Source of the DNA: Streptomyces sp. S.PB5
GTDB taxonomy: Bacteria; Actinomycetota; Actinomycetes; Streptomycetales; Streptomycetaceae
NCBI RefSeq assembly: GCF_030403745.1
Contig: NZ_JAQMWP010000013.1
Location: forward strand, 124,001-188,000
Direction: 5' to 3'
Length of the DNA stretch: 64,000 bases
The number at the start of each line of letters is the position of its first letter. The first letter of the stretch is position 1. Below the pieces are notes generated by a model that was given only the letters and a program-made list of their open reading frames with translations, had not been told where the DNA came from and searched no databases. Position numbers and translations under genes: made by a program. Of the stretch, positions 5,647-55,013 are shown piece after piece.

Positions 5647-5988
5647 TCAGTCGGTGGCCGCCACCGCTTCCTCGACCGAGGTGTGGATCGGGAACACCTT
5701 GGTGAGACCGGTGATACGGAAGATCTTCAGAATGCGCTCCTGGTTGCAGACCAGGCGCAGCGAGCCCTCATGGGCACGCACCCGCTTCAGTCCGCCGACC
5801 AGCACGCCGAGCCCGGTGGAGTCGAGGAAGTCCACGCCCTCCATGTCGACGACGAGGTGGAAACTCCCGTCGTTCACCAGCTCGACCAGCTGCTCGCGCA
5901 GCTTGGGCGCGGTATATACGTCGATTTCGCCACCGACCTCGACGACCGTACGATCGCCGACGGTACGGGTCGACAGGGACAGGTCCAC
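5647..5988 (-). CDS. bldG: Anti-anti-sigma factor BldG (STAS domain)
   Basis: This 113-residue STAS-domain protein is controlled by phosphorylation and needed for aerial growth and antibiotic production in S. coelicolor. The phosphorylation motif is [13 protein letters not shown]. Counting from the GTG start, the Ser is residue 57, which agrees with the published BldG phosphosite. The GTG is preceded by GGAGGAT. Known function of the family: unphosphorylated BldG binds anti-sigma factors and frees their sigma partners. Downstream apgA encodes one such partner. Length and sequence match the Streptomyces orthologue end to end. Confidence 0.97.
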
Positions 5989-6069
5989 GGATCCTCCAGC
6001 ACCTTGCTATCGAGCGGTCGCCCGTTAGGACACTCTCGGCAGAGCCCCCAGGACGGTTCGCCAGCCGCG

Positions 6070-8721
6070 ATGGCATTCAATCACTTACCGGCAGGCGTGC
6101 ACGACGCCTTGGTCCCATTGTCCGTCACGCCAGTGACACACTCGGTGCCGATGGCCAAGAATCACCGATCCGATCGACCCTCGGCGGACACCGTCTCCCG
6201 GCCGGAACCGGGCACGGTCCTGGACCGGCTCGCCTCCGGGCCGAGCCGGGCTGCGCGCATCACTCATACGGAGCACTTGCCCCCGCGCGAGGGCCGCCAT
6301 GCCGTCTGGCCTGACCGGATTCGTTCGGAGGTCGTCGCCGCGGTGCAGGCGGCCGGTGTCGAACACCCCTGGGCCCACCAGGCACAGGCGGCCGAGCACG
6401 CCCTCGACGGCGACTCGGTGGTCGTCGCGACCGGCACGGCCTCCGGCAAGTCCCTGGCGTACCTCATGCCGGTCCTGTCGGCCCTCCTGGACGGCTCCGA
6501 GGCCCCCAACGGCCGCGGGGCCACGGCTCTCTACCTCGCCCCCACGAAGGCGCTGGCGGCCGATCAGTGGCGTTCTGTGAAGGAACTTTCACAACCGCTG
6601 GGCAATTCAGTTCGACCAGCGGTCTACGACGGCGACACCCCGTTCGAGGAACGCGAGTGGATCCGCCAGTACGCCAACTACGTGCTGACCAACCCGGACA
6701 TGCTGCACCGCGGCATCCTCCCCTCCCACCCGCGCTGGTCCTCCTTCCTCAAGGCGCTCAAGTACGTCGTCATCGACGAGGTGCACACCTACCGCGGCGT
6801 CTTCGGCTCCCACGTCGCCCAGGTCCTGCGCCGCCTGCGCCGCCTCTGCGCCCGTTACGGCGCCTCCCCCGTCTTCCTGCTGGCCTCCGCGACCGCCGCC
6901 GAGCCCGCGGTCGCCGCACGCCGCCTCACCGGCCTCCGGGTGGTGGAGGTCGCCGACGACGCCTCACCCCGTGGTGAACTGGTGTTCGCCCTCTGGGAGC
7001 CCCCGCTCACCGAGATGCAGGGCGAGAAGGGCGCACCGGTCCGCCGCACCGCCACCGCCGAGACGGCGGACCTCCTGACCGACCTGACCGTCCAGGGCGT
7101 CCGCTCGGTCGCCTTCGTGCGCTCCCGGCGCGGCGCCGAGCTCATCTCGGTCATCGCCCAGGAGAGGCTGGCCGAGGTCGACCGCTCCCTGGCCCGGCGT
7201 GTTGCGGCCTACCGGGGCGGCTATCTCCCGGAGGAACGCCGCGCCCTGGAACAGGCCCTCCACTCGGGCGAGTTGCTGGGCCTCGCCGCGACGACGGCCC
7301 TGGAACTCGGCATCGACGTCTCCGGCCTGGACGCCGTGGTGATAGCCGGCTACCCGGGGACGCGCGCGTCCCTGTGGCAGCAGGCGGGCCGGGCGGGCCG
7401 CTCGGGCCAGGGGGCGCTGGCGGTCCTGGTCGCCCGGGACGACCCCCTGGACACGTTCCTCGTCCACCACCCCGAGGCCCTCTTCGACCAGCCCGTGGAG
7501 TCGACGGTCCTCGACCCCGACAACCCCTACGTGCTGGCCCCGCACCTGTGCGCCGCGGCGGCCGAACTACCCCTGACGGACGAGGACCTGGAGCTGTTCG
7601 GCCCGGCGACCGAGGGCCTGCTCCCCCAGCTGGAGGCCGCGAAGCTGCTGCGCCGCCGTACGAAGGCCTGGCACTGGACCCGCCGGGAATCCGCGGCCGA
7701 CCTCGCCGACATCCGCGGCGGGGGCGGCAGCCCGGTCCAGATCGTCGAGTCCGGCACGGGCCGCCTCCTGGGCACGGTCGACGCGGGCGCCGCGCACACG
7801 ACGGTCCACGCGGGCGCGGTCCACCTCCACCAGGGGCGCACCTATCTCGTCCGCTCCCTGGACCTCGACGAGTCGGTGGCCCTGGTCGAGGAGGCGAACC
7901 CCACGTACTCGACCGTGGCCCGCGACACGACGTCGATCTCCGTCCTGGAGACGGACATCGAAGTCCCGTGGGGCGAGGGCCGGTTGTGCTACGGCTCGGT
8001 CGAGGTCACCAACCAGGTCGTCTCCTTCCTGCGCAGACGTCTGATCACGGGCGAGGTCCTGGGCGAGACGAAACTCGACCTCCCTCCCCGTACGCTCCGC
8101 ACCCGCGCGGTGTGGTGGACGGTCACCGAGGACCAGCTGGACGAGGCCCGCATCAACCCCGAGATCCTCGGCGGCGCCCTGCACGCGGCGGAACACGCCT
8201 CGATCGGCATGCTCCCGCTGTTCGCGACGTGCGACCGCTGGGACATCGGCGGGGTGTCGATCCCGCTGCACCCCGACACGTTGCTCCCCACGGTCTTCGT
8301 CTACGACGGCCACCCCGGCGGCGCGGGCTTCGCCGAGCGCGCCTTCCACACCGCCCGTGCCTGGCTCACCGCCACCCGCCAGGCCATCGCCGCCTGCGAA
8401 TGCGACGCCGGCTGCCCGTCCTGCATCCAGTCCCCCAAGTGCGGCAATGGGAACGACCCGTTGCACAAGAGGGGGGCGGTGCGGTTGCTGACGGTGCTGT
8501 TGCGGGGGGCGCCGGAGGAGAAGGCGGAGGAGGAGAACGCGGAGGGGGGAGCGACCGAGGGGACGGTGCCAGCCGAGTCGGCCTCGGCGGTCACCCCGGC
8601 GGAGGGAACCGCTCCGCCGGAGGGAGCTGCCCCGCAGGACGGAGCCGCCCCGGCGCACGGAGCCGCCCCGCCGGCCCCCGCTACGGAACCTCCGGCGGCG
8701 GAAGCGACTCCGCAGGGCTGA
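6070..8721 (+). CDS. DEAH-type SF2 helicase, YprA/MrfA-like with DUF1998
   Basis: 883 residues from ATG 6070; an in-frame ATG at 6151 is possible and neither has a good ribosome binding site. Domain order: helicase core with Walker A ATGTASGKSLAYLMP, DEAH-like VIDEVHTYRG and motif III LASATAAEP; a C-terminal helicase domain with QQAGRAGRSGQGALAV; then a DUF1998 module with four Cys (CECDAGCPSCIQSPKC), likely a metal site. The last 70 residues are a Pro/Ala/Glu-rich tail. This is the helicase of the actinobacterial 'helicase/secretion neighborhood' families, always found beside a Tad-like cluster. MrfA homologues act in DNA repair; the link to secretion is unexplained. The 3' end overlaps the convergent TadG-like gene by 41 bp. 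Confidence 0.93.
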   Translation: MAFNHLPAGVHDALVPLSVTPVTHSVPMAKNHRSDRPSADTVSRPEPGTVLDRLASGPSRAARITHTEHLPPREGRHAVWPDRIRSEVVAAVQAAGVEHPWAHQAQAAEHALDGDSVVVATGTASGKSLAYLMPVLSALLDGSEAPNGRGATALYLAPTKALAADQWRSVKELSQPLGNSVRPAVYDGDTPFEEREWIRQYANYVLTNPDMLHRGILPSHPRWSSFLKALKYVVIDEVHTYRGVFGSHVAQVLRRLRRLCARYGASPVFLLASATAAEPAVAARRLTGLRVVEVADDASPRGELVFALWEPPLTEMQGEKGAPVRRTATAETADLLTDLTVQGVRSVAFVRSRRGAELISVIAQERLAEVDRSLARRVAAYRGGYLPEERRALEQALHSGELLGLAATTALELGIDVSGLDAVVIAGYPGTRASLWQQAGRAGRSGQGALAVLVARDDPLDTFLVHHPEALFDQPVESTVLDPDNPYVLAPHLCAAAAELPLTDEDLELFGPATEGLLPQLEAAKLLRRRTKAWHWTRRESAADLADIRGGGGSPVQIVESGTGRLLGTVDAGAAHTTVHAGAVHLHQGRTYLVRSLDLDESVALVEEANPTYSTVARDTTSISVLETDIEVPWGEGRLCYGSVEVTNQVVSFLRRRLITGEVLGETKLDLPPRTLRTRAVWWTVTEDQLDEARINPEILGGALHAAEHASIGMLPLFATCDRWDIGGVSIPLHPDTLLPTVFVYDGHPGGAGFAERAFHTARAWLTATRQAIAACECDAGCPSCIQSPKCGNGNDPLHKRGAVRLLTVLLRGAPEEKAEEENAEGGATEGTVPAESASAVTPAEGTAPPEGAAPQDGAAPAHGAAPPAPATEPPAAEATPQG

Positions 8722-43625: not shown

Positions 43626-44552
43626 ATGCGCGCGCGATACGGAGTACCTCTGTCGGTCGCGGCGGCTGGCGCCGCCGGTCTGGTCTACGCGGCGGGCTTC
43701 GAGGCCCGCTCCTACCGGCTCCGACGGGTGACCGTGCCCGTCCTCCCCGCCGGGATGCGCCCACTGCGGGTGCTGCAGGTCTCCGACATCCACATGGTCG
43801 GCGGCCAGCGCAAGAAACAGCGCTGGCTGCGGTCGCTGGCGGGGCTGCGCCCCGACTTCGTGATCAACACGGGCGACAACCTCTCGGACCCGGAGGGCGT
43901 ACCGGAGGTCCTGGACGCGCTGGGGCCGCTGATGGAGTTCCCGGGCGCGTACGTCTTCGGCTCGAACGACTACTACGGGCCCAAGCTCCGCAACCCCGCC
44001 CGCTACCTCTTGGAGAAGGCGAGCGGCCGCCACGGCCTGAACGGCAACGCACCGGCCGTCGGCGCGATCCACAACCCGTGGGAGAACCTGCGGGACGGTT
44101 TCGACTCGGCGGGCTGGCTCAACCTGACCAACACCCGCGGCATGCTGAAGATCGAGGGCGTGTCGATCGAGCTGACGGGACTGGACGATCCGCACATCAA
44201 GCGGGACCGGTACGCGGAGGTCGCGGGCGGGCCGTCCGGGGCGGCGGACTTCTCGATGGGTGTCGTACATGCGCCGTATCTGCGGGTGCTGGACGCGTAC
44301 ACGGCGGACGCCTATCCACTGATCCTCGCCGGACACACGCATGGCGGGCAGCTGTGCATCCCCTTCTACGGGGCGCTGGTGACCAACTGCGACCTCGACA
44401 CGGAGCGGGTGAAGGGGCTGTCCACGCATACGGCGGAGGGCCGGACGTCGTATCTGCATGTGTCGGCGGGGTGCGGGACGAATCGGTATACGCCGGTGCG
44501 GTTCGCTTGTCCGCCGGAGGTTACGTTGTTGACGTTGGTGGGGCGGGAGTAG
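43626..44552 (+). CDS. Membrane-associated metallophosphoesterase
   Basis: 308 residues from ATG 43626; ATG 43617 is also possible. An N-terminal hydrophobic segment (LSVAAAGAAGLVYAAG) may anchor the protein. Metal-binding motifs follow in order: VSDIHMVGG, INTGDNLSD, GSNDYYGPK, VHAPY and LAGHTHGGQ, a complete calcineurin-like set of the YkuE type. YkuE-like enzymes cleave phosphoesters, possibly in lipid or cell-wall metabolism. Confidence 0.9.
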   Translation: MRARYGVPLSVAAAGAAGLVYAAGFEARSYRLRRVTVPVLPAGMRPLRVLQVSDIHMVGGQRKKQRWLRSLAGLRPDFVINTGDNLSDPEGVPEVLDALGPLMEFPGAYVFGSNDYYGPKLRNPARYLLEKASGRHGLNGNAPAVGAIHNPWENLRDGFDSAGWLNLTNTRGMLKIEGVSIELTGLDDPHIKRDRYAEVAGGPSGAADFSMGVVHAPYLRVLDAYTADAYPLILAGHTHGGQLCIPFYGALVTNCDLDTERVKGLSTHTAEGRTSYLHVSAGCGTNRYTPVRFACPPEVTLLTLVGRE

Positions 44553-44605
44553 GGGGTCCGGGGGTCCGGGGGTCCGGGGGTCCGGGGGTCCCGGGGGTCC
44601 CGGGG
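44552..44605. repeat. G-rich tandem repeat (gtccggggg units)
   Basis: Six to seven copies of a 9-nt unit ggggtccgg with one-base variants, starting directly at the stop codon of the phosphoesterase gene. It has strong G-quadruplex potential on the plus strand. Confidence 0.85.
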
Positions 44606-44703
44606 TGACTAGGAAGTCCGTGGCCTCGGGATGAACTCGGGTTGGTTAACCCGCACGGACCGCCCGTATCGCCCCTTTTATGTGGCCTGCTTAGCGTGAG
44701 GGC

Positions 44704-45501
44704 ATGACCGCCCCGATACCCAGAGACATCCCGGACCTGCCCGCGGTCCCGGGCGTACCCGCGCTGCCGCCCTCCCCCGTCCCCGCCACAGCGGTGGTGG
44801 CCCCCGTACGCCGCCCGCTGACCGCCGCGTACCGCCTGCTGGTCGCCCTCGCGGCCGCCGCGGCCGTGACGATCGACCTGATCCTCGGCAGCCCGACCCG
44901 CGTACTGAGCTATTTCTCGGTCCAGAGCGCGATCCTGCTGGCGCTGGTCTTCACGGTGTCGGCGAAACGCGCGTGGAGCGCCCGGCGCCCCCTGTCCGGA
45001 ACCCTGACCGGCGCGACACTCCTCTACGTCCTGATCACGGCCTCGGTGTACCACCTGCTTCTGGCCGACGCGGCGACACCGTTCTCCATGACCGGCGGCA
45101 CGACGCCCCCGACCGGCTGGCAGGCCCTGGCGAACCACGCCCTCCATACGGCGATCCCAATCGCGGCGGTCGTGGACTGGCTGCTCCTGACCCCACCCGG
45201 CCGCCTCCACCTCCGCCGGGCGGCGACCTGGCTCCTCTATCCCCTGGCCTACCTGGCCTTCTCCTTCACCCGAGGCGAACTGCTCCTCCCCGGCACACCG
45301 GCCCGCTACCTCTACCCCTTCCTCGACGTCGACCTCCACGGCTACAAGAGCGTCCTCGGCAACGCCCTCCTCCTCGGCCTCTCCTTCTACGCCCTCGCCG
45401 TCCTCCTCGTGGCCCTCGACCACGCCCGCCCCAACCCCATCCGCCACCGCTCCCATCACCACGCCAAAACCGGATTTCGTCTCCAGCCACCGGTGGGCTA
45501 A
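44704..45501 (+). CDS. Pr6Pr family membrane protein
   Basis: 265 residues. A Pro-rich cytoplasmic N-terminus is followed by six hydrophobic helices, with conserved features such as LSYFSVQSAILLAL, ALANHALHTAIPIAAVVDWLL and RYLYPFLDVDLHGYK. These match the Pr6Pr family of six-helix proteins with conserved Pro. The function is unknown. It ends 42 bp before tRNA-Pro, with no clear terminator between. Confidence 0.85.
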   Translation: MTAPIPRDIPDLPAVPGVPALPPSPVPATAVVAPVRRPLTAAYRLLVALAAAAAVTIDLILGSPTRVLSYFSVQSAILLALVFTVSAKRAWSARRPLSGTLTGATLLYVLITASVYHLLLADAATPFSMTGGTTPPTGWQALANHALHTAIPIAAVVDWLLLTPPGRLHLRRAATWLLYPLAYLAFSFTRGELLLPGTPARYLYPFLDVDLHGYKSVLGNALLLGLSFYALAVLLVALDHARPNPIRHRSHHHAKTGFRLQPPVG

Positions 45502-45543
45502 AGTAAACGTCGTCGCCGCGACAAGCAGGACTAGCAGCGACAT

Positions 45544-45617
45544 CGGGGTGTAGCGCAGCTTGGCAGCGCGCTTCGTTCGGGACGAAGAGGTCGTGGGTTC
45601 AAATCCCGCCACCCCGA
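45544..45617 (+). tRNA. tRNA-Pro (anticodon CGG)
   Basis: A 74-nt cloverleaf. The acceptor stem CGGGGTG pairs with CACCCCG, the discriminator is A, and the anticodon stem CTTCG/CGAAG carries the loop TTCGGGA with anticodon CGG. The T arm contains GGTTCAAATCC. CCA is not encoded. Its 3' part is the integration site of the adjacent element, and the element restores an intact tRNA. Confidence 0.95.
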
Positions 45618-45618
45618 C
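45574..45618 (+). repeat. attL: 45-bp direct repeat inside tRNA-Pro
   Basis: Identical over 45 bp to 52986-53030. It covers part of the anticodon stem, the anticodon loop, the T arm and the acceptor 3' strand. The bases before (T versus G) and after (G versus A) differ, which defines the ends. Confidence 0.95.
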
Positions 45619-45670
45619 GCAGGTCAGAGGGCCATTCGCATGATCGCGAATGGCCCTCTTTCATGCCCAC

Positions 45671-45691
45671 GGGGCCAAACGGGGGGCCAAA
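45671..45691 (+). repeat. 21-bp subterminal repeat, left copy
   Basis: A sequence beginning ggggccaaacggggggccaa lies 52 bp inside the left att repeat, between att and the integrase gene. An identical copy in the same orientation lies inside the right end. Each copy itself holds two ggggccaaa half-units. It is a candidate integrase arm-type site. Confidence 0.8.
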
Positions 45692-45700
45692 CGAATTTGA

Positions 45701-46906
45701 TCAGGCCACCGCGTCGCCCTCTTCCTCGCCCTCCGCGTCCTCCCCTTCCTGATCTTCGGCGAAGATGTGATCCATCGCTTCGGCACCCTGCGTGATCACG
45801 GGCCGGAGCTGCTTGCGGTAGACCGCCTCTGTGGTCGCCTGACTGCTGTGACCGACCAAGAGCGCGATCCGTTCCAGGGGGATGCCGTGATCGGAGAGCA
45901 GGGACACGAAGCTGTGCCGGAGTTCCCGCGGCGTCCACTCCGGCTTCAGTCCGGCCTTCTTCACGATGGCCTTGAAGTCTCGCCGGACGTTGGCCGCGTC
46001 AAGCGCCTCGCCGCTCCGAGTCGTGAAAACGCGGCCGGTCGGGCTCCACTCCATCCCTCTCGATGCCCGCTCCTGCTTCTGCCATCGCATGTGCTCTTCG
46101 AGGACGTCGACCACCTGCTTCGGCAGAGCGATGGTCCGGCGGCTCTTCCTGGTCTTGGTCTCACCGTGCTTGCGCACCGAACGCCACACCGCGACGTGAG
46201 GCGGGATGCCGTCCGTCGTCTCCAGGAAGACGTGATCCCAGGTGAGGGGCCGCGCCTCTTCCGTGCGCACACCGCTGAGCAGCGAGAGCACGAGGTAGGC
46301 GTACAGCCGTGACGGACGCGCGGCGGTGAGCACGGCTTTCGCCTGCTCCAGGTTCAGTGCCTTGCTCGGTCGGCCGGGGCGCCCCTCCGGAGCGGTGACG
46401 AGTAGGGCGACGTTCCGCGCAGCCTTGTCCCTGCGCTGAGCGTGTGCGATGGAGCGGCGCAGGATGGCGAGCAGGTCACGCAGGCTTCGCGTCGCAAGGA
46501 ATTCGGCCCTGTCGTCCAACCAGTCGTCAACGTCGTCCGCGCTGAGTTCCTTCAGCTTGGCCTTGCCGATGAACGGGATCAGGTGCTTGTTCGCCATCGA
46601 GCGGTTCTTGCCGATGGTGCCCTTCTCGTCGCGCCCCTTAAGCCCGCGCTCCAACCAGTCGTTCACCGCGTCGGCCACGGTGTAGTTGGCCGGCGCCTTG
46701 ACGCCCGTCTGCACCTCCTTCTTCAAGTCCCGGATCTTCTGGCGGACTTCGGTCTTCGTCTTGCCGTACACCTTCGGTCGACGGCGCTTGCCGTTCGGGC
46801 CGTGTCCCAGGGAGACGGCCCCCACGAAACTCTTCTTGGCCGGGTCCCAGTAGATGGTGTCCGCACCATGGCCAGCCCTTTGGGCGCGCTTCGGGGTGTC
46901 GGTCAT
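45701..46906 (-). CDS. Tyrosine recombinase (integrase) of the element
   Basis: 401 residues from ATG 46906, which has GGAGG 11 nt upstream; ATG 46924 is also in frame. It has an N-terminal arm-binding domain (YWDPAKKSFVGAVSLGHGPNGKRRRPKVYG), a SAM-like core-binding domain, then the catalytic domain. Catalytic residues are Arg in LLSGVRTEEA, HxxR in TPRELRHSF, His in LVGHSSQATTEAVY and the nucleophile Tyr in that last segment. The C-terminus is very acidic. It integrates and excises the element at tRNA-Pro. Confidence 0.95.
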   Translation of the reverse strand: MTDTPKRAQRAGHGADTIYWDPAKKSFVGAVSLGHGPNGKRRRPKVYGKTKTEVRQKIRDLKKEVQTGVKAPANYTVADAVNDWLERGLKGRDEKGTIGKNRSMANKHLIPFIGKAKLKELSADDVDDWLDDRAEFLATRSLRDLLAILRRSIAHAQRRDKAARNVALLVTAPEGRPGRPSKALNLEQAKAVLTAARPSRLYAYLVLSLLSGVRTEEARPLTWDHVFLETTDGIPPHVAVWRSVRKHGETKTRKSRRTIALPKQVVDVLEEHMRWQKQERASRGMEWSPTGRVFTTRSGEALDAANVRRDFKAIVKKAGLKPEWTPRELRHSFVSLLSDHGIPLERIALLVGHSSQATTEAVYRKQLRPVITQGAEAMDHIFAEDQEGEDAEGEEEGDAVA

Positions 46907-46980
46907 GCTCTGTCGTGCCTCCATAGGACAGGGCCGCGCCCTGAAGGACGCGGCCCTGTGGAACTCGGGTGATGGGAAGT

Positions 46981-47190
46981 TCAGGCGGTGGCTTCTGCCT
47001 CACGCTTGAGGAGTTCGACGTACCGCTCGATGTACTCCGGCGGCACGAGACGGCGACGGCCGATGCGGACGGTCTGAAGTCGTCCGAGGCGTATCTCCTC
47101 GTAGACCATCGAGCGTCCGATCCTGAGAGCCTTGGCCGCCTCTTCCGGGCGGTAGAGGAGCTGTTCGGCGGGTTCAGCAATGGTGGCCAT
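46981..47190 (-). CDS. Excisionase-like winged-HTH protein
   Basis: 69 residues from ATG 47190, with GAGGAGG upstream. LLYRPEEAAKALRIGRSMVYEEIRLGRLQTVRIGRRRLVP is the MerR/Xis-type helix-turn-helix and wing of small excisionases. It is placed directly upstream of the integrase gene, as expected. It probably controls excision direction and may also bind the repeat array just upstream. Confidence 0.9.
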   Translation of the reverse strand: MATIAEPAEQLLYRPEEAAKALRIGRSMVYEEIRLGRLQTVRIGRRRLVPPEYIERYVELLKREAEATA

Positions 47191-47245
47191 GCGGCGGTGC
47201 CTCCTCGGCAGGGCTCCGGGGGCGGTGGCCCCCTTCCTGTCAGGT

Positions 47246-47462
47246 CCGCTACTTCCGCTACCTCCGCTACCGCCCTGGTCAGGGGCATGATCCAGGTAGC
47301 GGATAGGGGCAGCGGTAGCGGATGGAGCCGCTACCGGCCCCGGATTCGTGGCCACGGGGCGGGTAGCGGATGGGGTGTTGCGGTAGCGGATGCGGAGCGG
47401 CTTGCCGCTACCCAGAAACCGCCTCTGAGCTGCCCGGTAGCGGAAGTAGCGGAAGTAGCGGA
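47246..47462. repeat. Array of 9-bp iterons (GGTAGCGGA / TCCGCTACC)
   Basis: At least eleven copies of a 9-bp unit are present. Three tandem reverse copies lie at 47245-47271, and single copies in both orientations lie near 47295, 47314, 47328, 47362, 47382 and 47404. Three tandem forward copies lie at 47436-47462. The array spans the xis-ATPase gap and the 3' end of the ATPase gene. Tandem sets at both ends face each other. It resembles plasmid iterons or a multi-site operator. A partial unit follows near 47480. Confidence 0.85.
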
Positions 47463-48583
47463 CTTTCCGCGGGGGGTGGGCAGTAGCGCTGCCACGCGTC
47501 GTGCAGATCGCTCGCGTAGTAGCCCTTCATGACGCTCCCGCCTGCCTTGATGTTGCGGGCCGCGATGGGGGTGTTGTCCGCGGTCATGTACTCCCGCAGT
47601 ATCCTCGACAGCCCGCGAGCATCGAGCGCCTTGCCGCTCATGTCCGCCCACGGCGCCTCTTCGAGGCTGTGCAGCCTGTCGAGGATGGCGACGGTGGGCA
47701 GGCGGTCGATGCCGTTGAACACGTAGTCGCGCAGGTCGGTCAACAGCCGGATACCGACGCTGCCCTTGTCGCTGGTCTTGGCCGCGTTCACCAGCTCGAT
47801 GCACGCGGCGCGGGCTCGCTCCGGCCAGGCGCCGCCCGCCGCATCCGCCACGGCGAGCAGGGGTTCCCACACGTCCGCAGGCCGGTCGCTGATGCCCTCC
47901 GGCAGTGCCGGGAACACCCCGTCGACCAGGTGGCGGATGGACTGTGCCCAGGTGGCTAGCCGGTCGCGCAGCGCGTGGCCTTCCTTCTCGTGGATGCGCT
48001 GCCGGAACGGCTCCACCTGCTCGTTCGGCGCGCGGCGGCGCATGCGGACGATGACCGAGCGCGTGAGGATCGTGTCCGGCAGCGAGCCGAGACCAGCGAC
48101 CGCGACTCCGCAGAACGACGGGAACTCCTGTACCTGTTGGTTGGAGCCGTCGCCTACGCAGCGCCACATAACGCCGGAGCGTCGGTGACCTGCGTTCAGG
48201 AAGCCTCGAAGCTGTTCGTTCTCTCCGGCCTTGGGGCTAAAGATGGTGTCGATCTCGTCGAACAGGATCGTGGGCCGCCCCTCCATCCCGGACACCGCAC
48301 GGAAGAGCGCGGAGGCGGAGGCGTTGACCGCGACCATCGGTTGCGGCACGAGGGTTTCCACGATCTCCAGCGCGCGGGACTTGCCGGAACCCGGCTCCGG
48401 GGAGAGGAACGCGAGCCGCGGTGTGGAGTCGAAGCAGTCGAGCAGGTGCGCGTGTGCGTCCCACAGCGTCACGGCGACGTACGCGGCTTCGAGGGGGAAG
48501 ATGTTGAAGCGCCGGTGGAAGGCTTCCACCTCATCGAGCAGTGCGGAGCCGTCCATGGCGGGTGCCGACGGATTGGTGCTCAT
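47408..48583 (-). CDS. DUF3631-type P-loop ATPase of the element
   Basis: 391 residues from ATG 48583, with GGGAGG upstream. Walker A is LSPEPGSGKSRALEIVE, Walker B is RPTILFDEIDTIFS and sensor-like residues follow. A C-terminal helical domain contains LSRILREYMTADNTPIAARNIK. It matches DUF3631 proteins, which are common on actinobacterial integrative elements and often sit beside or fused to primase-polymerase domains; here no primase domain is present. It is probably a replication or mobilisation helicase-like ATPase. The last codons run through the iterons, giving a repeated LLPLLPLP C-terminus. Confidence 0.85.
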   Translation of the reverse strand: MSTNPSAPAMDGSALLDEVEAFHRRFNIFPLEAAYVAVTLWDAHAHLLDCFDSTPRLAFLSPEPGSGKSRALEIVETLVPQPMVAVNASASALFRAVSGMEGRPTILFDEIDTIFSPKAGENEQLRGFLNAGHRRSGVMWRCVGDGSNQQVQEFPSFCGVAVAGLGSLPDTILTRSVIVRMRRRAPNEQVEPFRQRIHEKEGHALRDRLATWAQSIRHLVDGVFPALPEGISDRPADVWEPLLAVADAAGGAWPERARAACIELVNAAKTSDKGSVGIRLLTDLRDYVFNGIDRLPTVAILDRLHSLEEAPWADMSGKALDARGLSRILREYMTADNTPIAARNIKAGGSVMKGYYASDLHDAWQRYCPPPAESPLLPLLPLPGSSEAVSG

Positions 48584-48936
48584 GCCGCCTGCCTCCCTTC
48601 CTGGTTGGTGCGGAGCGGGCATGCGTCGCGGTGGGCGGTGTGGTCTTCGATCAGGGCGAGCACCTTCGTGTGACCGACGGCGCTGCGGTCCCTGCCGCAC
48701 AGGCACTTCGAGGTGGCGGTAGGCACGGCGCCGCGTGGTGCGCAGATGCACAGCCACGCGACCGGGTACCGGCCGTCTCCCTCGTGCGGGTCAGGACGAA
48801 GAGCAGAAGGGACGCCCTTGCGGGCGGCGCCTTTCGGCTCGCCCACGGCCGGACCGAGCGCGGCTTGTGCGGCGGCACGCGGCACGGTCGGGGTGGCGGG
48901 AAGGCTCTTCAGTGCAGGGCTGGGCGGAGCGCTCAT
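48580..48936 (-). CDS. Small Cys/His-rich protein of the element
   Basis: 118 residues from ATG 48936; the frame is open to 49020, and the start is uncertain. It overlaps the ATPase gene by ATGA, supporting that it is real. The C-terminal half has CICAPRG, CLCGRDRSAVG and HTAHRDACP, a Cys/His set likely to bind zinc. The N-terminal part is Ala/Pro-rich and may have been joined from other sequence. The function is unknown; proteins like this occur beside DUF3631 genes. Confidence 0.65.
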   Translation of the reverse strand: MSAPPSPALKSLPATPTVPRAAAQAALGPAVGEPKGAARKGVPSALRPDPHEGDGRYPVAWLCICAPRGAVPTATSKCLCGRDRSAVGHTKVLALIEDHTAHRDACPLRTNQEGRQAA

Positions 48937-49141
48937 GCGTGAGGGCGACCTGGAGCAGGCACTCATCTTGGGGGAGCGGGCTCTCGAAGGGGACCGACAG
49001 TCGGTGCCATCGCTCATCATGACCAGTCGCGAGCTTGCAGCCGAGATGCGGCGCCGATACGCCGCAGAACCTGCGGCGCAGGACTACCTCGGCCGGCTCC
49101 ACTCATTGGCACAGGAGAAGCCTGGCTTCATGCCCCGATGA
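48935..49141 (+). pseudogene. 3' fragment of a TPR-type (XRE-associated) regulator
   Basis: The plus strand encodes MREGDLEQALILGERALEG, then RQSVPSLIMTSRELAAEMRRRY and a short tail ending GFMPR. This is the characteristic C-terminal end of Streptomyces helix-turn-helix regulators with tetratricopeptide repeats. The N-terminal DNA-binding part is absent, and the 5' side runs into the minus-strand small gene. It looks like a truncated remnant. Confidence 0.65.
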
Positions 49142-49257
49142 GGTTCAGACCGGACGATCACCAGCCCAGGGCTTATTGTCCTGGGCTGATCCTTGCCGTG
49201 GACGAGAGCTGGGCAACGCACCAAACATCCGAGCATTCGTTCAAATCTGCGTATCCC

Positions 49258-49287
49258 ATGACATGCAAGGAGCTCTGGCTCTATAGT
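49258..49287 (+). promoter_or_regulatory. Housekeeping-type promoter of the cargo operon
   Basis: ATGACA (49258-49263) and TATAGT (49282-49287) match the -35 and -10 consensus at five of six positions each, with an 18-bp spacer. The start codon of the SLATT gene is about 36 nt downstream. This is the best sigma-70-type promoter I see in the window. Confidence 0.7.
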
Positions 49288-49322
49288 GTGCCAACTGCAT
49301 GCGCAACCTGTTCGGAGCATAA

Positions 49323-50249
49323 GTGGCGCCCCTTGAGCAAGGTCTCACCGAAGCGGACTTCCCAGACATTTATCGCTCTGCAGATTCTGCTTCCCTAGAG
49401 GGCCAGAAAAGGTATCTGAAGTATACCAAACTGCGGCTCTATTTCGTAATCTCCGCCGCTACAGCCAGCGCGCTATCCACTGGAATTTCAAGCACGGGAA
49501 TTCAGAAAACCCTGATAGCCCTTTCACTATTTTCCTTCCTAGTGGCATCCGCTGCCGAGATTGTTTTGCTCAGCATCAGTCCGGAGGAATCTTGGTACCA
49601 CGGACGCGCCGTGGCGGAATCCGTAAAAACTCTGACATGGAAATTTGCGGTCTGTGCAGATCCATTCTCCCGCCCCGTTGAAGCGGCAGATTCCGAGCGC
49701 CTCTTTCTTCAACAGCTCACCGAAATCGTAGCCGAATCGCCGATATTCGTCGACTACAGCTCGACCGGGTCGCAGCAAATTACTCCAAAAATGAGGGAAC
49801 TACGTGGAGCAGACTTGGAAACCCGCCGGATGGCCTACCGTGATGGGCGAGTTGAGGACCAAAGAATCTGGTATTCAGGAAGTGCCAAGAAAAATGAGCG
49901 TAACGCCCTAAGGTGGCGTATTGCTCTAGTTGTTTTGGAACTTCTGGGAGCTACCGGAGCCCTACTTATTTTGCTTAACGTGACCAATCTAGACGTGGGT
50001 AGTGCACTAGCCGCAGGTGTAGCCGCCGGCGGGGCGTGGATTGGGGTAAAGCAGTACGACAGCCTAGCGAGCGCCTACTCATTGACTGCTACAGAGTTGG
50101 CACTTGTCCGCGCAGAGGCAGAACAGGTAACAGATGACACATCTTGGTCCAAGTACGTCATCTCTGCAGAACAGGCGATTAGCAGGGAGCACACTATGTG
50201 GCTGGCTCGGCGAGCACGTGTAAGAATGCCCCGAAGGAGATCGGCGTAA
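49323..50249 (+). CDS. SLATT/DUF4231-type membrane protein
   Basis: 308 residues from a GTG with GGAG about 7 nt upstream. Two helical hairpins are visible: membrane segments near 40-56 and 62-84, and again near 198-218 and 226-243. Motifs around them include SLEGQKRYLKYTKLRL, SWYHGRAVAESVKTLTWKF and AYRDGRVEDQRIWYSGSA. C-terminal SAEQAISREHTMWLARR is the hallmark end of SLATT domains. SLATT proteins were predicted as 2-TM pore-forming effectors of nucleotide-signalled conflict systems. This protein seems to hold a DUF4231-like and a SLATT unit in tandem. Codon use and GC are far lower than in the flanks. Confidence 0.8.
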   Translation: MAPLEQGLTEADFPDIYRSADSASLEGQKRYLKYTKLRLYFVISAATASALSTGISSTGIQKTLIALSLFSFLVASAAEIVLLSISPEESWYHGRAVAESVKTLTWKFAVCADPFSRPVEAADSERLFLQQLTEIVAESPIFVDYSSTGSQQITPKMRELRGADLETRRMAYRDGRVEDQRIWYSGSAKKNERNALRWRIALVVLELLGATGALLILLNVTNLDVGSALAAGVAAGGAWIGVKQYDSLASAYSLTATELALVRAEAEQVTDDTSWSKYVISAEQAISREHTMWLARRARVRMPRRRSA

Positions 50250-50254
50250 ATTCT

Positions 50255-50866
50255 GTGGCCAACTACTACGCAAATGAGCAGGCGAAGCGGGAGCTTCGTC
50301 AGATCTCGGCACGCTATGCGGGATCTAGCGAAACAGCCACTCGGCACAAATGTTTCATCAGCTACCACGGTGCCAACGCTACAGAGGTTCTCTCTTTCGT
50401 TAAGCGATTCGAGCACATCTTCATTCCTCGGGTGATCGGCGTCACCGATGACGACCCCAGGATTAACAGTGACGACGTTGACTATGTCATGGATACGATC
50501 CGAGAAAAATACCTATCGGACTCAACCGTCACAATCCTAATGGTTGGCAGTTGCACTTGGTCGCGAAAATTCATTGACTGGGAAATCTACAGTTCGTTGA
50601 GGCGTGACAAGGTAAACCGCTTGAACGGTCTAATGGGTATCGAACTTCCCAGCGTGGCGCAGGCGGGCGCGACACTTCAAAGCAGGTTCAGTGACAACCT
50701 ACCTAAGGGGGAGGGAGAGGAGGGGTACGCACGCTACTGGTCATACCCTCGGACTGACCAGGCTTTGCGCGACTGCATTCAAGATGCCTTCAACGCCCGC
50801 CAGCAAAGAGATCATTTGATTCGTAACGCGCGCCAACGCCGGCAGAGAGATTCGACATGCCCGTGA
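50255..50866 (+). CDS. TIR-like DUF1863/ThsB-type protein
   Basis: 203 residues from GTG 50255; an upstream ATG (50198) overlapping the previous gene would add 19. KCFISYHGANATEVLSFVK opens a TIR-like fold, followed by VIGVTDDDPRINSDDVDYVM, IREKYLSDSTVTILMVGSC and TWSRKFIDWEIYSSL. This pattern is the DUF1863 (MTH538-type) TIR family, to which ThsB of the Thoeris antiphage system belongs. ThsB-type proteins make cyclic ADP-ribose-like signals from NAD+. No ThsA (SIR2 or Macro-SLOG) gene is present; the SLATT protein could be the effector instead. Confidence 0.8.
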   Translation: MANYYANEQAKRELRQISARYAGSSETATRHKCFISYHGANATEVLSFVKRFEHIFIPRVIGVTDDDPRINSDDVDYVMDTIREKYLSDSTVTILMVGSCTWSRKFIDWEIYSSLRRDKVNRLNGLMGIELPSVAQAGATLQSRFSDNLPKGEGEEGYARYWSYPRTDQALRDCIQDAFNARQQRDHLIRNARQRRQRDSTCP

Positions 50867-50915
50867 AAGGGCCGTCGATACATCTAATCACATCGTGACA
50901 CCCAAGGAAGATGTC

Positions 50916-51764
50916 ATGGACGAGATCGCTTTTGTGGCTATGAAATTCGAAAGTGATCCTTGGCGGGATAAGAAGTACCTAGCCATCTCTGACGTATTAA
51001 GTGAGGCAGGCTTCAAAGCGCTGCGCGCCGATGAGATTCGCACCTCTGGCATATCCATGAATGAGGTAACAAATTATCTCCGGAATGCCAACCTCGTCGT
51101 TGTGGATATCTCAGGGCAGTCTCTTAACGTATCCTACGAATTGGGATATTGCCATGGAATCGGGAGGGACTCGGAAAACGTCATTCTACTATGCAAGGAA
51201 GGAGTTAATATCCCATTTAACTATGCGCACTACAGACATAACATGTACAGAGATTTGCGTCACCTGCGCACAATTCTAAGATACCGGCTGGAGATCTCAA
51301 CCCCGCTCACAGACGATCAGCTGGGATACGCCTTTTCCATTACTGACCTTTCTCGTACCTACGGTGCCACGGTAGCCGAGGCAGTACTGGATTCTCTGCG
51401 GGCAATGAGCTTCACAGGTCGTTGCGAGTATTACGCAGGCGACACACTTCCGGGGCTTTATGTCGTTGGCCTCGCTGTGAAAGGTGCCTCCCGCAGGCAG
51501 AAGTTCGACGATAGATGGTGGATGAAGCTTAGACAGTTGGTCGCAAGAAACCTGGATGAGGGCGAAAGCACATGCAAGCTTGACGAGATTTTGTCTGAGT
51601 ACGCAGAAGTAAGAGCATTCCGTCAGCAGCTGCTGCCACGAGGCGTAGCCGAGTTCGCCGATGGGCACCCGAAGCAGCTCCTAAGACCAGCTGAAGAAGA
51701 TTCTTGGTTTTCCGGTGCAATTCTGGACAGGCTGCAGCCCGAAAGGGAAACGGGTCAGGAATAA
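50916..51764 (+). CDS. 2-deoxyribosyltransferase-like (NDT/TIR-like fold) protein
   Basis: 282 residues from ATG 50916, with AAGGAAG upstream; GTG 50895 is also in frame. The N-terminal ~120 residues start IAFVAMKFESDPW and include GFKALRADEIRTSGISMNEV, LVVVDISGQSLNVSYELGY and VILLCKEG. This is the pattern of nucleoside 2-deoxyribosyltransferase-like proteins, which cleave or sense N-glycosidic bonds and are frequent in bacterial conflict systems. The C-terminal ~150 residues are not recognised (LPGLYVVGLAVKG is one feature). It is the last gene of the three-gene cargo operon, 49 nt after the TIR-like gene. Confidence 0.72.
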   Translation: MDEIAFVAMKFESDPWRDKKYLAISDVLSEAGFKALRADEIRTSGISMNEVTNYLRNANLVVVDISGQSLNVSYELGYCHGIGRDSENVILLCKEGVNIPFNYAHYRHNMYRDLRHLRTILRYRLEISTPLTDDQLGYAFSITDLSRTYGATVAEAVLDSLRAMSFTGRCEYYAGDTLPGLYVVGLAVKGASRRQKFDDRWWMKLRQLVARNLDEGESTCKLDEILSEYAEVRAFRQQLLPRGVAEFADGHPKQLLRPAEEDSWFSGAILDRLQPERETGQE

Positions 51765-52003
51765 GCAGCTACTCCGGCCCGTCCTCCTCAGCGCGTAGCC
51801 CGCTGTCGGTTCCTGGCGCCTCCGGCATCCATACCGCCCTACACCGAGGTCCGTTGGCCGCAGGCGAGCAGAAAGTCGCGGTGCATGCGAGCAGCCGCCA
51901 TCGTCTCTAACCCTCGGACAATCGCAACCTGCTGGAATGTGCTGGCGACCCGGGTATGCGTAAACGAGATGGCTCCAGGGGCCGCGTGGACTACCGTGTA
52001 GTC

Positions 52004-52741
52004 ATGAGTCGTTGTACAGCCCCACGTCAAGGGCATCGGACCGCCAGCGGACGTGCGGCGTGCCCCGCATGCGGCGGCGGAGGCTACGGGTACTCATCGC
52101 CCCGGTCCTACTACCCGCCGCCGACTTACACGTCGCGGAACAACGGCGGCGGCGCGACCAGTAGCGGCCGCTCCAGTAGCGGTAGAACGCGGGCGCCTTG
52201 GTCACCGAGCACCTCGTCCGTGACTTACACGCCTGCCGAGGTGAAGGGGCTGGCTCCTGTTCGCGACGCCGCCGTATTGCGCGCGCGTCAACTGCCAGAC
52301 CTTCGCGATGTGTTCCTCTGCCACGCATGGGATGACCGGCGCGGTGCTGCCAGGGAGTTGTGCGACCTGTTGGAAGCAGAGGGCGTGTCCGTCTGGTTCA
52401 GCGAGAAGGACATCGCGCTCGGCCTACCGTTCATGCGGGAAATCGACAGGGGCCTGGCGAGGTCGCGTACGGGTCTCGTCCTGGTCACCCCTGCGCTGCT
52501 GAGGCGCATCGAGCACGGTGGCGTCTCTGACAAGGAGCTCTCGGAGCTCCTTGCGCGTGACCTGCTGCTCCCTGTCGTGCACGAGACGACCTACGGTGAA
52601 CTTCGGAACGTCAGCCCCTTGCTTGCATCCCGAAACGGGTTGGACACGGCGGATGATTCGATGGCAGTCATTGCCACCAAGATTGCCGAGCTGGTCGCCC
52701 CTGAGGACGACTTGACCGCGCCACCCACATCGGCGAACTAG
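52004..52741 (+). CDS. Zinc-ribbon and TIR-domain protein
   Basis: 245 residues from ATG 52004. The N-terminus has CTAPRQGHR and CPACGGGGYGY, a small Cys-rich ribbon, then a Ser/Tyr/Gly-rich disordered linker (about residues 27-75). Residues ~101-225 are a TIR domain: DVFLCHAWDDRRGAARELC, GVSVWFSEKDIALGLPFM, then REIDRGLARSRTGLVLVTP. Bacterial TIR domains often hydrolyse NAD+; a Glu is present at MREID, but whether it is the catalytic one is not certain. No ribosome binding site is seen, and TACCGT lies 6 nt upstream, so it may be leaderless. GC is near the chromosomal average. Confidence 0.82.
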   Translation: MSRCTAPRQGHRTASGRAACPACGGGGYGYSSPRSYYPPPTYTSRNNGGGATSSGRSSSGRTRAPWSPSTSSVTYTPAEVKGLAPVRDAAVLRARQLPDLRDVFLCHAWDDRRGAARELCDLLEAEGVSVWFSEKDIALGLPFMREIDRGLARSRTGLVLVTPALLRRIEHGGVSDKELSELLARDLLLPVVHETTYGELRNVSPLLASRNGLDTADDSMAVIATKIAELVAPEDDLTAPPTSAN

Positions 52742-52863
52742 GCGTCTGGCGGCGTGCCCGGGCGTCGCTCCACGTCGCCGACGCCATGCCCAAAACGGAC
52801 GCGACCCTGGCCAGCACCGCGGGCATAGCCTTACGGAACGTCCTCTCACAGGCTTGACCGTCG

Positions 52864-52884
52864 GGGGCCAAACGGGGGGCCAAA
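52864..52884 (+). repeat. 21-bp subterminal repeat, right copy
   Basis: Identical and in the same orientation to 45671-45691. It lies about 100 bp inside the right att repeat, in the gap after the TIR gene. Two copies near opposite ends of the element suggest a function in recombination. Confidence 0.8.
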
Positions 52885-52985
52885 GCAGGTAGCCGGTCCA
52901 AGACCTTTCTGGACTCTAATGGACGGTGGCGGAGGCGAATGGGCAGTTCAGCCACTCCAAGTCCAGGTCACACGGGCCCCGATCG

Positions 52986-53030
52986 CGTTCGGGACGAAGA
53001 GGTCGTGGGTTCAAATCCCGCCACCCCGAC
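52986..53030 (+). repeat. attR: 45-bp direct repeat
   Basis: The right copy of the tRNA-Pro 3' segment. It lacks the 5' half of the tRNA (acceptor 5' strand and D arm), so it is not a functional tRNA gene. Confidence 0.95.
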
Positions 53031-53045
53031 AGTGAAGTACCAATT

Positions 53046-53080
53046 CAGGGGCCTGATCCGCAGTGCGGGTCGGGCCCCTG
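53046..53080 (+). terminator. Hairpin, probable original tRNA-Pro terminator
   Basis: CAGGGGCC (53046-53053) pairs with GGCCCCTG (53073-53080), with a second TCCGC/GCGGG pairing inside. It lies just past attR, so before integration it would have followed the tRNA gene directly. Confidence 0.65.
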
Positions 53081-53099
53081 CGTGGTTTCTGGAGATCAC

Positions 53100-53350
53100 G
53101 TGCGCTGGTCGGCCTTCGGCGGCCCGGACGGCGTCGACGACGGACTGTGCCTGTGCTCGCTGCACCACAAGCTCTTCGACAAGGGCGTCCTCGATGTCGG
53201 CGAGGGTCGCCGCGTCCTGGTCTCCCAGCGCTTCGTCGGCCACAGCCCCGCCGACCGCGAACACGTCATCGCACTCGCTGAGCGCCCACTCGTCGGATCT
53301 CAACCGGGCGCCCACCCCGTCGCCGCGATCCACCGCTCCTGGCACGCCGG
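53100..53350 (+). pseudogene. C-terminal fragment of an HNH endonuclease gene
   Basis: VRWSAFGGPDGVDDGLCLC, SLHHKLFDKGVL and VLVSQRFVGHSPADREHVIAL read as the C-terminal half of a Streptomyces HNH endonuclease (the LHHKLFD core includes the metal-binding His). The N-terminal half is absent and no start is credible. It is debris adjoining the integration site. Confidence 0.7.
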
Positions 53351-53508
53351 ATCCTGGCCGACGCCAAGTTGCACGGCCACAAGTGCGCAATCGACGCCGA
53401 GATCGCCGTGATCGCGCGGCAGCAGATGGGACAGGTCACCGTCTTCACCTCGGACGTCGACGACCTGGAGAAGTCGTTCCCGACACGGCCGTCGTCAAGA
53501 AGGTCTGA
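53351..53508 (+). pseudogene. C-terminal fragment of a PIN-domain (VapC-like) toxin
   Basis: ILADAKLHGHKCAIDAEIAVI followed by GQVTVFTSDVDDLEK is the end of a PIN-domain ribonuclease. After DDLEK the frame shifts by one base and continues as VVPDTAVVKKV before the stop at 53506-53508. The N-terminal half is missing and the fragment is joined to the HNH remnant in another frame. Confidence 0.6.
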
Positions 53509-53727
53509 CCCACCCACGCCCCTCAAGGGCCCGCAGTTCGGATGGCACCAGCGCGGGTGGAGGCTCCGTCGGGCGGCGAGCGCTACCTCCCGCTGCTCGG
53601 TCAAGCAACAGGTTCGCAGGATGCTGCGACGTGGCTCGCAGGAAGTTGCGCGTCGTTCTGGGCGGGTCGGGGTGAGGGCGCTGGAAAAGTGGAGGGACCA
53701 ATCCCCCTTGCAGAAGGAGCCGGCACG

Positions 53728-53910
53728 ATGGCCCAGAAATCCACGGGCGGGAGTACGCGGAATCCGCTGGCCGGGCTGACCGGCATGCTGATCGCGCTCG
53801 CCTGTTCTCTTGTGATCTTCGACGGTGCGACGAAGGTCGTGACGGTGTCCGTGTTCGCCATCGGGGCGCTCGTCTGTGCCCGTTCGCTGACGCGGGCGAG
53901 TCGGCAGTAG
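53728..53910 (+). CDS. Small two-helix membrane protein
   Basis: 60 residues from ATG 53728, with AAGGAG 9 nt upstream. After a polar N-terminus it has two hydrophobic stretches (LTGMLIALACSLVIF and VVTVSVFAIGALVCA) and a basic end. No family is recognised. The strong ribosome binding site supports it as a real gene. Confidence 0.7.
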   Translation: MAQKSTGGSTRNPLAGLTGMLIALACSLVIFDGATKVVTVSVFAIGALVCARSLTRASRQ

Positions 53911-53996
53911 GGCCGACCGCGTTCCTCGTCCGGCGGGGTGGGAGCAGCTGCTTCTCAGCGTGCTCCCACCCCCGTCGTGTTGATTTCGGGCGCCGG

Positions 53997-55013
53997 TCAG
54001 ACCCAGCCTCGTTCGCGGGCGAGCAGCGCGGCCTGGAAGCGGTTCGACGCGCCCAGTTGCTGCATCAGGGACGCCACGTACTTGCGGTAGGTGCGGACCG
54101 AGATGCCGACGTCACGGGCCCCCGTCTCGTCCTTGTCCACCGTGCACAGGGATTCCAGAATTCTGCGCTCGATCTCACCGGGGCGGTCGTCGGCCGGGGC
54201 CGGTCTGCCCTCACCCGACAGCGGTGGGAGTTCCTGGGCCTGGCCCCACATGCGCTCGAAGAGCGAGACCAGCGTGGCGACGAGCCCGGGTTCGCGGGCC
54301 AGCAGGGCGCCGCGGCTGGTGTCGGCCGGGTCGATCGGGGTGAGCGCGGCGGCCCGGTCGAAGATCAGGACGCGTTCCAGCGGGAGCCGGGAGATCCGGA
54401 TCTCCGCTCCCTTGGCGGTCAGTTCACGCAAGTAGGCCATGGTGCCGGGGTCGTCCAGCGCGGCGGACCCGATCAGGCTCCGCATCCGTATGCCGCGGCG
54501 CAGGATGCGCTCGTCGGACGACCGGGACGTCGCGACGACCTGCGGCGGGATCAGTCCGCTCGGCCAGGTGGTCAGGCTCTCCGAGTGGGTGAAAAAGGTC
54601 AGCTCGTCGATCGCGGCGCGGACCCGGTCGATTCCCTCCAGTCGCTCCATCGCCGGCCGGCCGTCTCCTGCGATGGCGTCGCTCGCCGGTGCGGCGTGCC
54701 GCTCGGCGAGCAGGGAGGCGACGATGTCGTGGTCGGCGGCCGCGTTCTCCAGTTCCGACCGGGTCAGGGCCACCTTGCGCTCGATGAGGGCTTCGATCGC
54801 CTTGGCCGGAGCGACGGGGCGCGGCAGTCCGTCGGCGATGGTGGCGATCCCCAGTTCGAGGGTCCGCTTCTGCAGGGACCGCATCGATTCCTCGTCCGGG
54901 GAACAGTGCTCTGCCAGCTCTTTCGAGTCAGCACCTCCGGTCCGCAACAGCGCGCGGTAGAAGGCCTCCTCCTCCGGTCTGACGCCCAGGAACTCAAGAC
55001 TCGGGTGCGCCAC
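53997..55013 (-). CDS. LuxR/TrmB-like transcriptional regulator
   Basis: 338 residues from GTG 55013, preceded by GGGGGGAG. The N-terminal ~75 residues resemble a TrmB/winged-helix domain (LRTGGADSKELAEHCS). The middle is an effector-like region with a PLD-like pattern (LIFDRAAALTPID). The C-terminal helix-turn-helix of LuxR type is ESLCTVDKDETGARDVGISVRTYRKYVASLMQQLGA. Such regulators often sit beside peptide-biosynthesis genes in Streptomyces; a LanC-like remnant lies next door. The frame is open upstream, but with no better start. Confidence 0.85.
   Translation of the reverse strand: MAHPSLEFLGVRPEEEAFYRALLRTGGADSKELAEHCSPDEESMRSLQKRTLELGIATIADGLPRPVAPAKAIEALIERKVALTRSELENAAADHDIVASLLAERHAAPASDAIAGDGRPAMERLEGIDRVRAAIDELTFFTHSESLTTWPSGLIPPQVVATSRSSDERILRRGIRMRSLIGSAALDDPGTMAYLRELTAKGAEIRISRLPLERVLIFDRAAALTPIDPADTSRGALLAREPGLVATLVSLFERMWGQAQELPPLSGEGRPAPADDRPGEIERRILESLCTVDKDETGARDVGISVRTYRKYVASLMQQLGASNRFQAALLARERGWV

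Follow-up and report, generated by a model that had tools for sequence, protein, structure and literature searches.

A DrHyd/NDT-like protein with an orphan carboxyl-terminal domain encoded beside TIR and SLATT genes in a Streptomyces integrative element

Introduction

Parts of three papers from the Aravind group describe TIR-SLATT neighbourhoods and DrHyd effectors (PMC9503650, PMC7159879, PMC8195603). In the sections of PMC9503650 drawn on here, SLATT proteins are predicted signal-regulated membrane effectors, the TIR, DrHyd and SLOG domains are grouped in a single clade that acts on NAD+ or derivatives of ADP-ribose, and cleavage of N-glycosidic bonds is attributed to DrHyd enzymes. The same sections mention no DrHyd partner for the TIR-SLATT pairs of firmicute phages (PMC9503650).

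The present work concerns a gene that stands third behind a SLATT and a TIR gene in the window, that is, the whole 64,000-nt stretch of Streptomyces sp. S.PB5 DNA that was analysed. SLATT proteins are predicted membrane effectors of many prokaryotic conflict systems, and how a signal gets to them is, to our knowledge, not settled. We also know of no activity, ligand or phage phenotype for the product of this third gene. SLOG or Macro domains sense the signal in Thoeris effectors. Retron-Eco1 (Ec86) has an NDT-like effector whose extra domain is DNA-binding, and this retron is said, in the title of a 2024 paper by Carabias et al., to form NAD+-hydrolysing filaments. No description of a SLATT-TIR-DrHyd trio was found among the open-licence papers listed; it may nevertheless be published, and articles by Burroughs (2015, NAR) and by Burroughs and Aravind (2020, J Bacteriol) are likely to treat such a trio.

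Organization of the three genes

The trio is composed of the following genes:

49323 to 50249, forward strand: gene 1, membrane protein with tandem SLATT_3 and SLATT_1 domains (PF18184, E 4e-43; PF18181, E 3e-32).
50255 to 50866, forward strand: gene 2, ThsB-type TIR protein (PF08937, E 1e-12); start uncertain, frame open from 50198.
50916 to 51764, forward strand: gene 3, DrHyd/NDT-like protein of 282 amino acids with an orphan carboxyl-terminal domain (open reading frame, alignment with a Nocardia protein, AlphaFold2 model, structure match).

The SLATT_3 and SLATT_1 domains of gene 1 score 148 and 112 bits, respectively, against Pfam cut-offs of 26.3. In its product residues 60-82 and 200-231 are hydrophobic, and its Pfam layout has no nucleotide-binding domain. 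The TIR domain coded by gene 2 reaches 48 bits (Pfam cut-off 21), carries W109 and E110 that are invariant across four aligned TIR sequences, and its profile matches the PDB entries 6lhy and 9b7d (ThsB1) with an E-value of 3e-6.

The open reading frame of gene 3 is real. Its ATG at position 50916 is preceded by the sequence AAGGAAG (50904-50910), located 5 nt upstream, and translation from this codon yields the 282-residue product. A longer form of 289 amino acids would start at the GTG at position 50895, a start that is less well supported because the alignment with the Nocardia relative begins at the ATG. The SLATT, TIR and DrHyd genes are adjacent on the same strand, with gaps of 5 nt between genes 1 and 2 and of 49 nt between genes 2 and 3 for the starts used here, in agreement with the original prediction that gene 3 codes the third component of a TIR/SLATT operon. 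Promoter and terminator scans gave results at chance level. It is probable that the trio constitutes a three-gene anti-virus alarm on a small mobile element.

The integrative element at tRNA-Pro

The trio is cargo of a 7.4-kb integrative element inserted at a tRNA-Pro gene, whose other features are:

45544 to 45618, forward strand: tRNA-Pro (CGG) gene identified with ARAGORN; its 3' 45 bp (45574-45618) are the left attachment repeat.
45701 to 46924, reverse strand: tyrosine integrase (PF00589, E 2e-21).
46981 to 47355, reverse strand: HTH_17 (excisionase-like) protein (PF12728, E 1e-9).
47408 to 48580, reverse strand: DUF3631 protein (PF12307, E 1e-61); start uncertain, reading frame open to 48757.
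51956 to 52741, forward strand: second TIR protein (TIR_2, E 6e-15; PADLOC ThsB profile PDLC00424, 344 bits).
52986 to 53030, forward strand: right attachment repeat, identical to 45574-45618 (repeat search; empty site in genome G007).

The attachment repeats are perfect over 45 bp and spaced by 7,412 bp. The empty site is found in the relative G007, where 9650918 is the last position of the left flank and 9650919 the first of the right flank; in genome G002 the aligned flanks lie 3 bp apart. On contig C9 of genome G006, about 46.7 kb separate the end of the left-flank match from a second att-like copy with the right flank after it; here a different insertion probably occupies this tRNA-Pro site. 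The second TIR protein has a relative at positions 6735-7487 of locus L052.

The GC content is 51-59% over positions 49000-51999 against 64-72% in the rest of the region 44000-54499. Because of this drop across the cargo, the latter looks foreign even to the element that carries it.

The amino-terminal domain

Gene 3 codes two domains:

50916 to 51290, forward strand: amino-terminal DrHyd/NDT-like Rossmannoid domain, residues 1-125 (Z about 10 to deoxyribosyltransferases and DNPH1).
51138 to 51140, forward strand: codon of Glu75 in the YELG motif (E in 37 of 43 rows), aligned with the YELG glutamate of Rcl/DNPH1.
51291 to 51761, forward strand: carboxyl-terminal alpha/beta domain, residues 126-282 (no family; 42% identity to the protein of Nocardia locus L042; ferredoxin/RRM-like topology in two models).

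The whole protein has no Pfam match below an E-value of 0.1 and no NCBIfam match, while the best Pfam hit of the amino-terminal domain alone is TIR_2 (E 0.07), under the cut-off; its profile finds rat Rcl/DNPH1 weakly (E 0.005). The only PADLOC match of gene 3 is the CBASS effector profile PDLC00733, covering residues 55-119 of the 289-residue form (E 7e-7), which is also matched by the proteins of loci L028, L030, L042, L092 and L101.

When the AlphaFold2 model is compared with solved structures by VIA, residues 1-105 align to nucleoside 2'-deoxyribosyltransferases and DNPH1 with Z scores of about 10 over 97-99 residues. The matches include 7o62 (Z 10.1, 99 aligned, rmsd 3.4), 8pqs and the DNPH1 structure 8rpt (Z 10.0 each), and TIR domains score slightly below these enzymes. 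Foldseek alone yielded no hit for this domain with an E-value under 0.001. The fold match and the kept YELG glutamate support the view, put forward in the original prediction, that the first 120 residues or so are NDT-like.

Residue conservation was assessed in 43 distinct aligned rows derived from 46 matches in genomes, plasmids and phages, three of these rows being brief additional matches within proteins already represented. The position of Glu75, aligned with the catalytic YELG glutamate of Rcl, is occupied by E in 37 rows, by G in 4, by A in 1 and by a gap in 1. Asp39 is present in all 43 rows, Asp64 in 41 and Arg37 in 40. The position of the second catalytic aspartate of human DNPH1 (Asp80, the residue mutated in 8rpt) corresponds to Val51 in gene 3 and is hydrophobic (I, V, M, L or A) in all 43 rows, from which it follows that the protein may have a different or a weak activity, or that the domain may only bind nucleotides. 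Assignment of gene 3 as a plain deoxyribosyltransferase was rejected on account of this replacement. The domain belongs to a conflict-system branch of the TIR-DrHyd-SLOG class.

Stand-alone DrHyd genes coding proteins of about 219 amino acids are found in a Staphylococcus phage (L119, 2893-3552) and in a Streptococcus phage (L120, 2911-3570). In each phage the gene that precedes the DrHyd gene lies on the other strand, and in L119 so do all annotated neighbours shown.

The carboxyl-terminal domain

The carboxyl-terminal part alone (residues 121-282) has no match in Pfam (up to an E-value of 10), PHROGs or PDB sequences, and whole-protein scans with NCBIfam and PADLOC gave nothing over this region. 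These are the roughly 150 residues for which the original prediction recognised no family.

A full-length relative of nearly equal length is encoded by Nocardia amikacinitolerans (locus L042). The two proteins share 71 of 125 residues in the amino-terminal part (57%) and 66 of 156 in the carboxyl-terminal part (42%); the SLATT proteins of the two loci share 34% identity only. Locus L042 emerged when the TIR protein was used as the anchor for scanning the genome collection, a search that gave 128 relatives, of which the best 80 were kept, defining 79 loci. Its three genes are contiguous and reordered, with the SLATT gene on the other strand, the DrHyd gene convergent and the TIR gene divergent relative to it. 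Since the same partners are kept in two genera with a differing gene order, it is likely, on comparative grounds, that the three products function as a unit. Its conservation in Nocardia at 42% identity, beside SLATT and TIR genes, makes it unlikely that the carboxyl-terminal part is a disordered tail.

The domain is rare. Among 396 genomes of the phylum and 374 of the class its only copy is that of the window, while 301 genomes of the family of genome G464 and 118 genomes of the genus of G984 (Nocardia group) contain one and the same copy, in G984 (contig C30, 3367-3888), which is the same place as L042 (contig NZ_BDAU01000030.1, with reversed coordinates); the four genome sets overlap and their counts are not additive. 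The carboxyl-terminal part from the window has no match on plasmids and that of Nocardia has three at chance level, and no copy was confirmed in viral contigs. When the whole protein is compared to phages and plasmids, the matches listed (20 of 45 and 20 of 26, respectively) cover the amino-terminal domain and none extends beyond residue 145. Among 392 Streptomyces-group genomes the alignments extend to residue 185 in locus L003, 182 in L009, 147 in L006 and 150 in L013. These extensions were taken as spill-over because the carboxyl-terminal profile finds nothing, up to an E-value of 10, in the open reading frames of loci L002-L023. In the searches made here the domain is therefore present in two genomes, those of the window and of Nocardia.

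The best full-length AlphaFold2 model has a mean pLDDT of 66, the other four of the five models range from 53 to 57, and the carboxyl-terminal domain folded alone reaches 43. The best full-length model and that of the isolated domain agree on a beta-alpha-beta-beta-alpha-beta core followed by further alpha/beta elements, suggesting a ferredoxin/RRM-like core with moderate confidence in the former model and low confidence in the latter. The structure prediction proposed as a check of this region thus speaks for a folded domain in the best of five models, but was poor when the domain was folded by itself. The original prediction had named a known common domain unrelated to signalling, or disorder, as the findings that would speak against it; the region is instead without a known family, conserved and predicted, with moderate confidence, to be folded.

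Foldseek and VIA searches with the predicted domain retrieve ferredoxin-like proteins of many unrelated kinds, none clearly ahead, including ribosomal protein S6, eIF2-alpha, antibiotic monooxygenases and de novo designs. The full model matches HP0184 (2atz) with a Z score of 8.8 (99 aligned, rmsd 3.2), and a library of viral structures yields one match with an E-value under 0.001, named CMP/hydroxymethyl CMP hydrolase. A TRADD-N identity of the domain was considered and not adopted. The Foldseek hit to TRADD-N (1f3v, E 0.03), obtained with the model of pLDDT 43, stands amid many generic ferredoxin-like folds. The relevant part of PMC8195603 assigns to TRADD-N a motif of a tiny residue plus serine in the turn between strands 2 and 3. 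In the moderate-confidence model this motif is absent between strands 168-175 and 181-188, for the window protein and for that of L042.

A variable third gene at TIR-SLATT loci

The survey anchored on the TIR protein covers 83 loci, namely the 79 described above and four chosen beforehand (the window, L028, L029 and L030); L029 and L038 represent a single place, and identical rows come from L052 and L054. Tandem SLATT genes were detected in 22 of the 83 loci, DrHyd genes in 11 and both in 6.

TIR-SLATT pairs are found repeatedly, with a third gene that differs from locus to locus or is absent. A DrHyd gene with another tail lies 35 nt behind the TIR gene in L028 and 46 nt behind the SLATT gene in L092, and in the Vibrio locus L030 a DrHyd+TPR-S gene is found on the strand opposite to the TIR gene. 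The third gene of L061, 20 nt behind SLATT, codes a TIR protein (TIR_2 below the Pfam cut-off), and a TIR gene convergent with SLATT occupies this place in L043. DUF4062-like genes are found about 0.3 kb behind TIR in L043 and about 0.9 kb behind SLATT in L064; both match the PADLOC profile PDC-S60, and DUF4062 itself is matched by L043 only, below its cut-off. A pentapeptide+TIR protein is encoded on the other strand near the TIR-SLATT pair of L037. No DrHyd match was found near the TIR-SLATT pairs of L029/L038 and L037. As genes were called by a crude script and several contigs end nearby, this variation indicates a tendency and not a count.

A DrHyd gene adjoins the pair in three of the five distinct Streptomyces TIR-SLATT places (window, L028, L029/L038, L037 and L092). 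DrHyd matches number 23 in the 392 Streptomyces-group genomes. As a rough guide, the occurrence of DrHyd genes within 50 nt of TIR-SLATT in L028 and L092 is far from chance, though defence genes cluster. DrHyd is not needed by all TIR-SLATT systems. The carboxyl-terminal domain of gene 3 is likewise not a general requirement of SLATT action, since at other TIR-SLATT loci the third gene is of another kind or none was found. The carboxyl-terminal halves of the DrHyd proteins are more variable than the amino-terminal ones, with identities of 42% versus 57% between the window and L042 and of 46% versus 77% between L028 and L092.

Three loci of the survey have further peculiarities. The Vibrio harveyi plasmid pVH3 (L030, 2230-5564) carries genes for a DrHyd+TPR-S protein, a small TIR, a SLATT and a ThsB-type TIR on alternating strands. 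In L028 a second DrHyd gene (4837-6498, 553 amino acids) is found downstream of the trio, separated from it by a transposase-like open reading frame identified by eye. A small TIR, a 647-residue DrHyd protein and a ThsB-type TIR are encoded consecutively at 2511-5615 in L052/L054, a locus that has no SLATT match.

Possible roles of the gene 3 protein

The likeliest reading, still a tentative one, is that gene 3 codes an interchangeable third member of a TIR-SLATT defence cassette, which would act on NAD or nucleotides and use its carboxyl-terminal domain for control or docking. Upon infection, the ThsB-type TIR protein would generate an NAD+-derived signal or deplete NAD+, and the tandem SLATT protein would be the effector acting on the membrane. 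The DrHyd protein might serve as a second glycosidase on the same pool, either NAD+ or the TIR product, so as to amplify, convert or limit the signal, while the ferredoxin/RRM-like domain could regulate this activity or tether the protein to a partner or trigger. The most likely mechanism would be that of a second NAD+/nucleotide glycohydrolase controlled by the carboxyl-terminal domain. Retention of the glutamate speaks for an enzyme, whereas a protein that only binds its ligand would be compatible with the lost aspartate and with the kinship to SLOG sensors. As defence genes cluster, the adjacency of the three genes carries limited weight by itself.

The main rival, a possible if doubtful one, follows the idea of the original prediction that the extra domain may bind the signal or the SLATT protein: the signal made by TIR would be held in the DrHyd pocket, with no need for catalysis, and the carboxyl-terminal domain would pass it on to the SLATT channel. 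Such a relay is consistent with a SLATT layout that has no nucleotide-binding domain, with the loss of the second catalytic aspartate and with the grouping of the DrHyd clade with SLOG sensors in the part of PMC9503650 that treats them. However, conservation of Glu75, Arg37, Asp39 and Asp64 (37, 40, 43 and 41 of 43 rows) is more than a pure sensor needs, and there are TIR-SLATT loci without a DrHyd match (L029/L038 and L037). The position of gene 3 as third in a compact operon, its optional presence, which suits an accessory regulator, and the N-glycosidic bond cleavage ascribed to DrHyd enzymes in that same paper (PMC9503650) would also agree with a brake that degrades or sequesters the TIR product and guards the cell against unintended SLATT activation; this is improbable, as third genes elsewhere are partly TIR-like and point to more of the same activity rather than to its removal.

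The greater divergence of the carboxyl-terminal halves, and their differences between loci, could alternatively reflect recognition of a phage component by this domain, the third gene being swapped to alter detection. Domain tails, however, commonly diverge faster, which makes such a trigger receptor an improbable explanation as well. We know of no escape mutants or triggers for the domain. That gene 3 is a stand-alone defence gene sharing the mobile element by chance is very improbable: the element does contain another TIR gene (51956-52741) and DrHyd genes do occur alone in phages, but gene 3 is on the same strand as the pair at 49 nt from it, the three genes are also together in Nocardia, and DrHyd genes adjoin TIR-SLATT in L028 and L092.

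A compact cassette on an excisable element, in which a third gene can be exchanged beside a core of two, would permit a direct test of whether SLATT responds to the TIR product or to the third protein. A bolder and unlikely proposal is that the carboxyl-terminal domain is a new module for sensing a signal or an invader, and the third gene a swappable slot (DrHyd, TIR, DUF4062, varying tails) that couples the TIR messenger to opening of the tandem SLATT membrane effector, in a Thoeris-like pathway with a separate, exchangeable receptor or enzyme.

Comparison with known systems

The trio combines a conserved, rare domain with known defence parts in an unusual way. For comparison with complete systems, the seven open reading frames of the element taken as genes were scanned with Pfam. 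The ThsB_TIR domain (PF08937; solved relatives 6lhy and ThsB1 9b7d) is shared with Thoeris; a full Thoeris system was rejected since no ThsA-type effector (SIR2-SLOG, or Macro plus membrane helices), nor any SIR2, SLOG or Macro domain, is present among the seven. Retron-Eco1 (Ec86) is a phage-defence unit with an NDT-like effector, and gene 3 likewise codes an NDT-like protein; a retron was rejected because the scanned proteins include no reverse transcriptase. They also include no CD-NTase and PDLC00733 covers residues 55-119 only, by which CBASS was rejected.

With nucleoside 2'-deoxyribosyltransferases and DNPH1 (Rcl), gene 3 shares the fold (Z about 10) and the YELG glutamate, but it differs in the hydrophobic residue at the Asp80 position, in the extra carboxyl-terminal domain and in having no Pfam match above the cut-off. 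The DrHyd+TPR-S, or MAP3K TRAFs-binding-type, proteins of Vibrio (L030) and Alteromonas (L101) have an amino-terminal domain of the same DrHyd clade and are likewise encoded beside ThsB-type TIR genes, in Vibrio together with SLATT. Their carboxyl-terminal part is TPR-S (PF20308, E 1e-23 and 2e-21), whereas residues 121-282 of gene 3 are without a Pfam match up to an E-value of 10. The MAP3K TRAFs-binding Pfam model is matched by the TPR-S members of the DrHyd clade, to which gene 3 adds an uncharacterised carboxyl-terminal domain. The TIR-SLATT pairs of the Aravind group are similar in placing a ThsB-type TIR gene beside SLATT, here in the tandem SLATT_3+SLATT_1 form; the locus differs from them by its third gene, coding a DrHyd protein with an orphan carboxyl-terminal domain, and by its location in an integrative element at tRNA-Pro.
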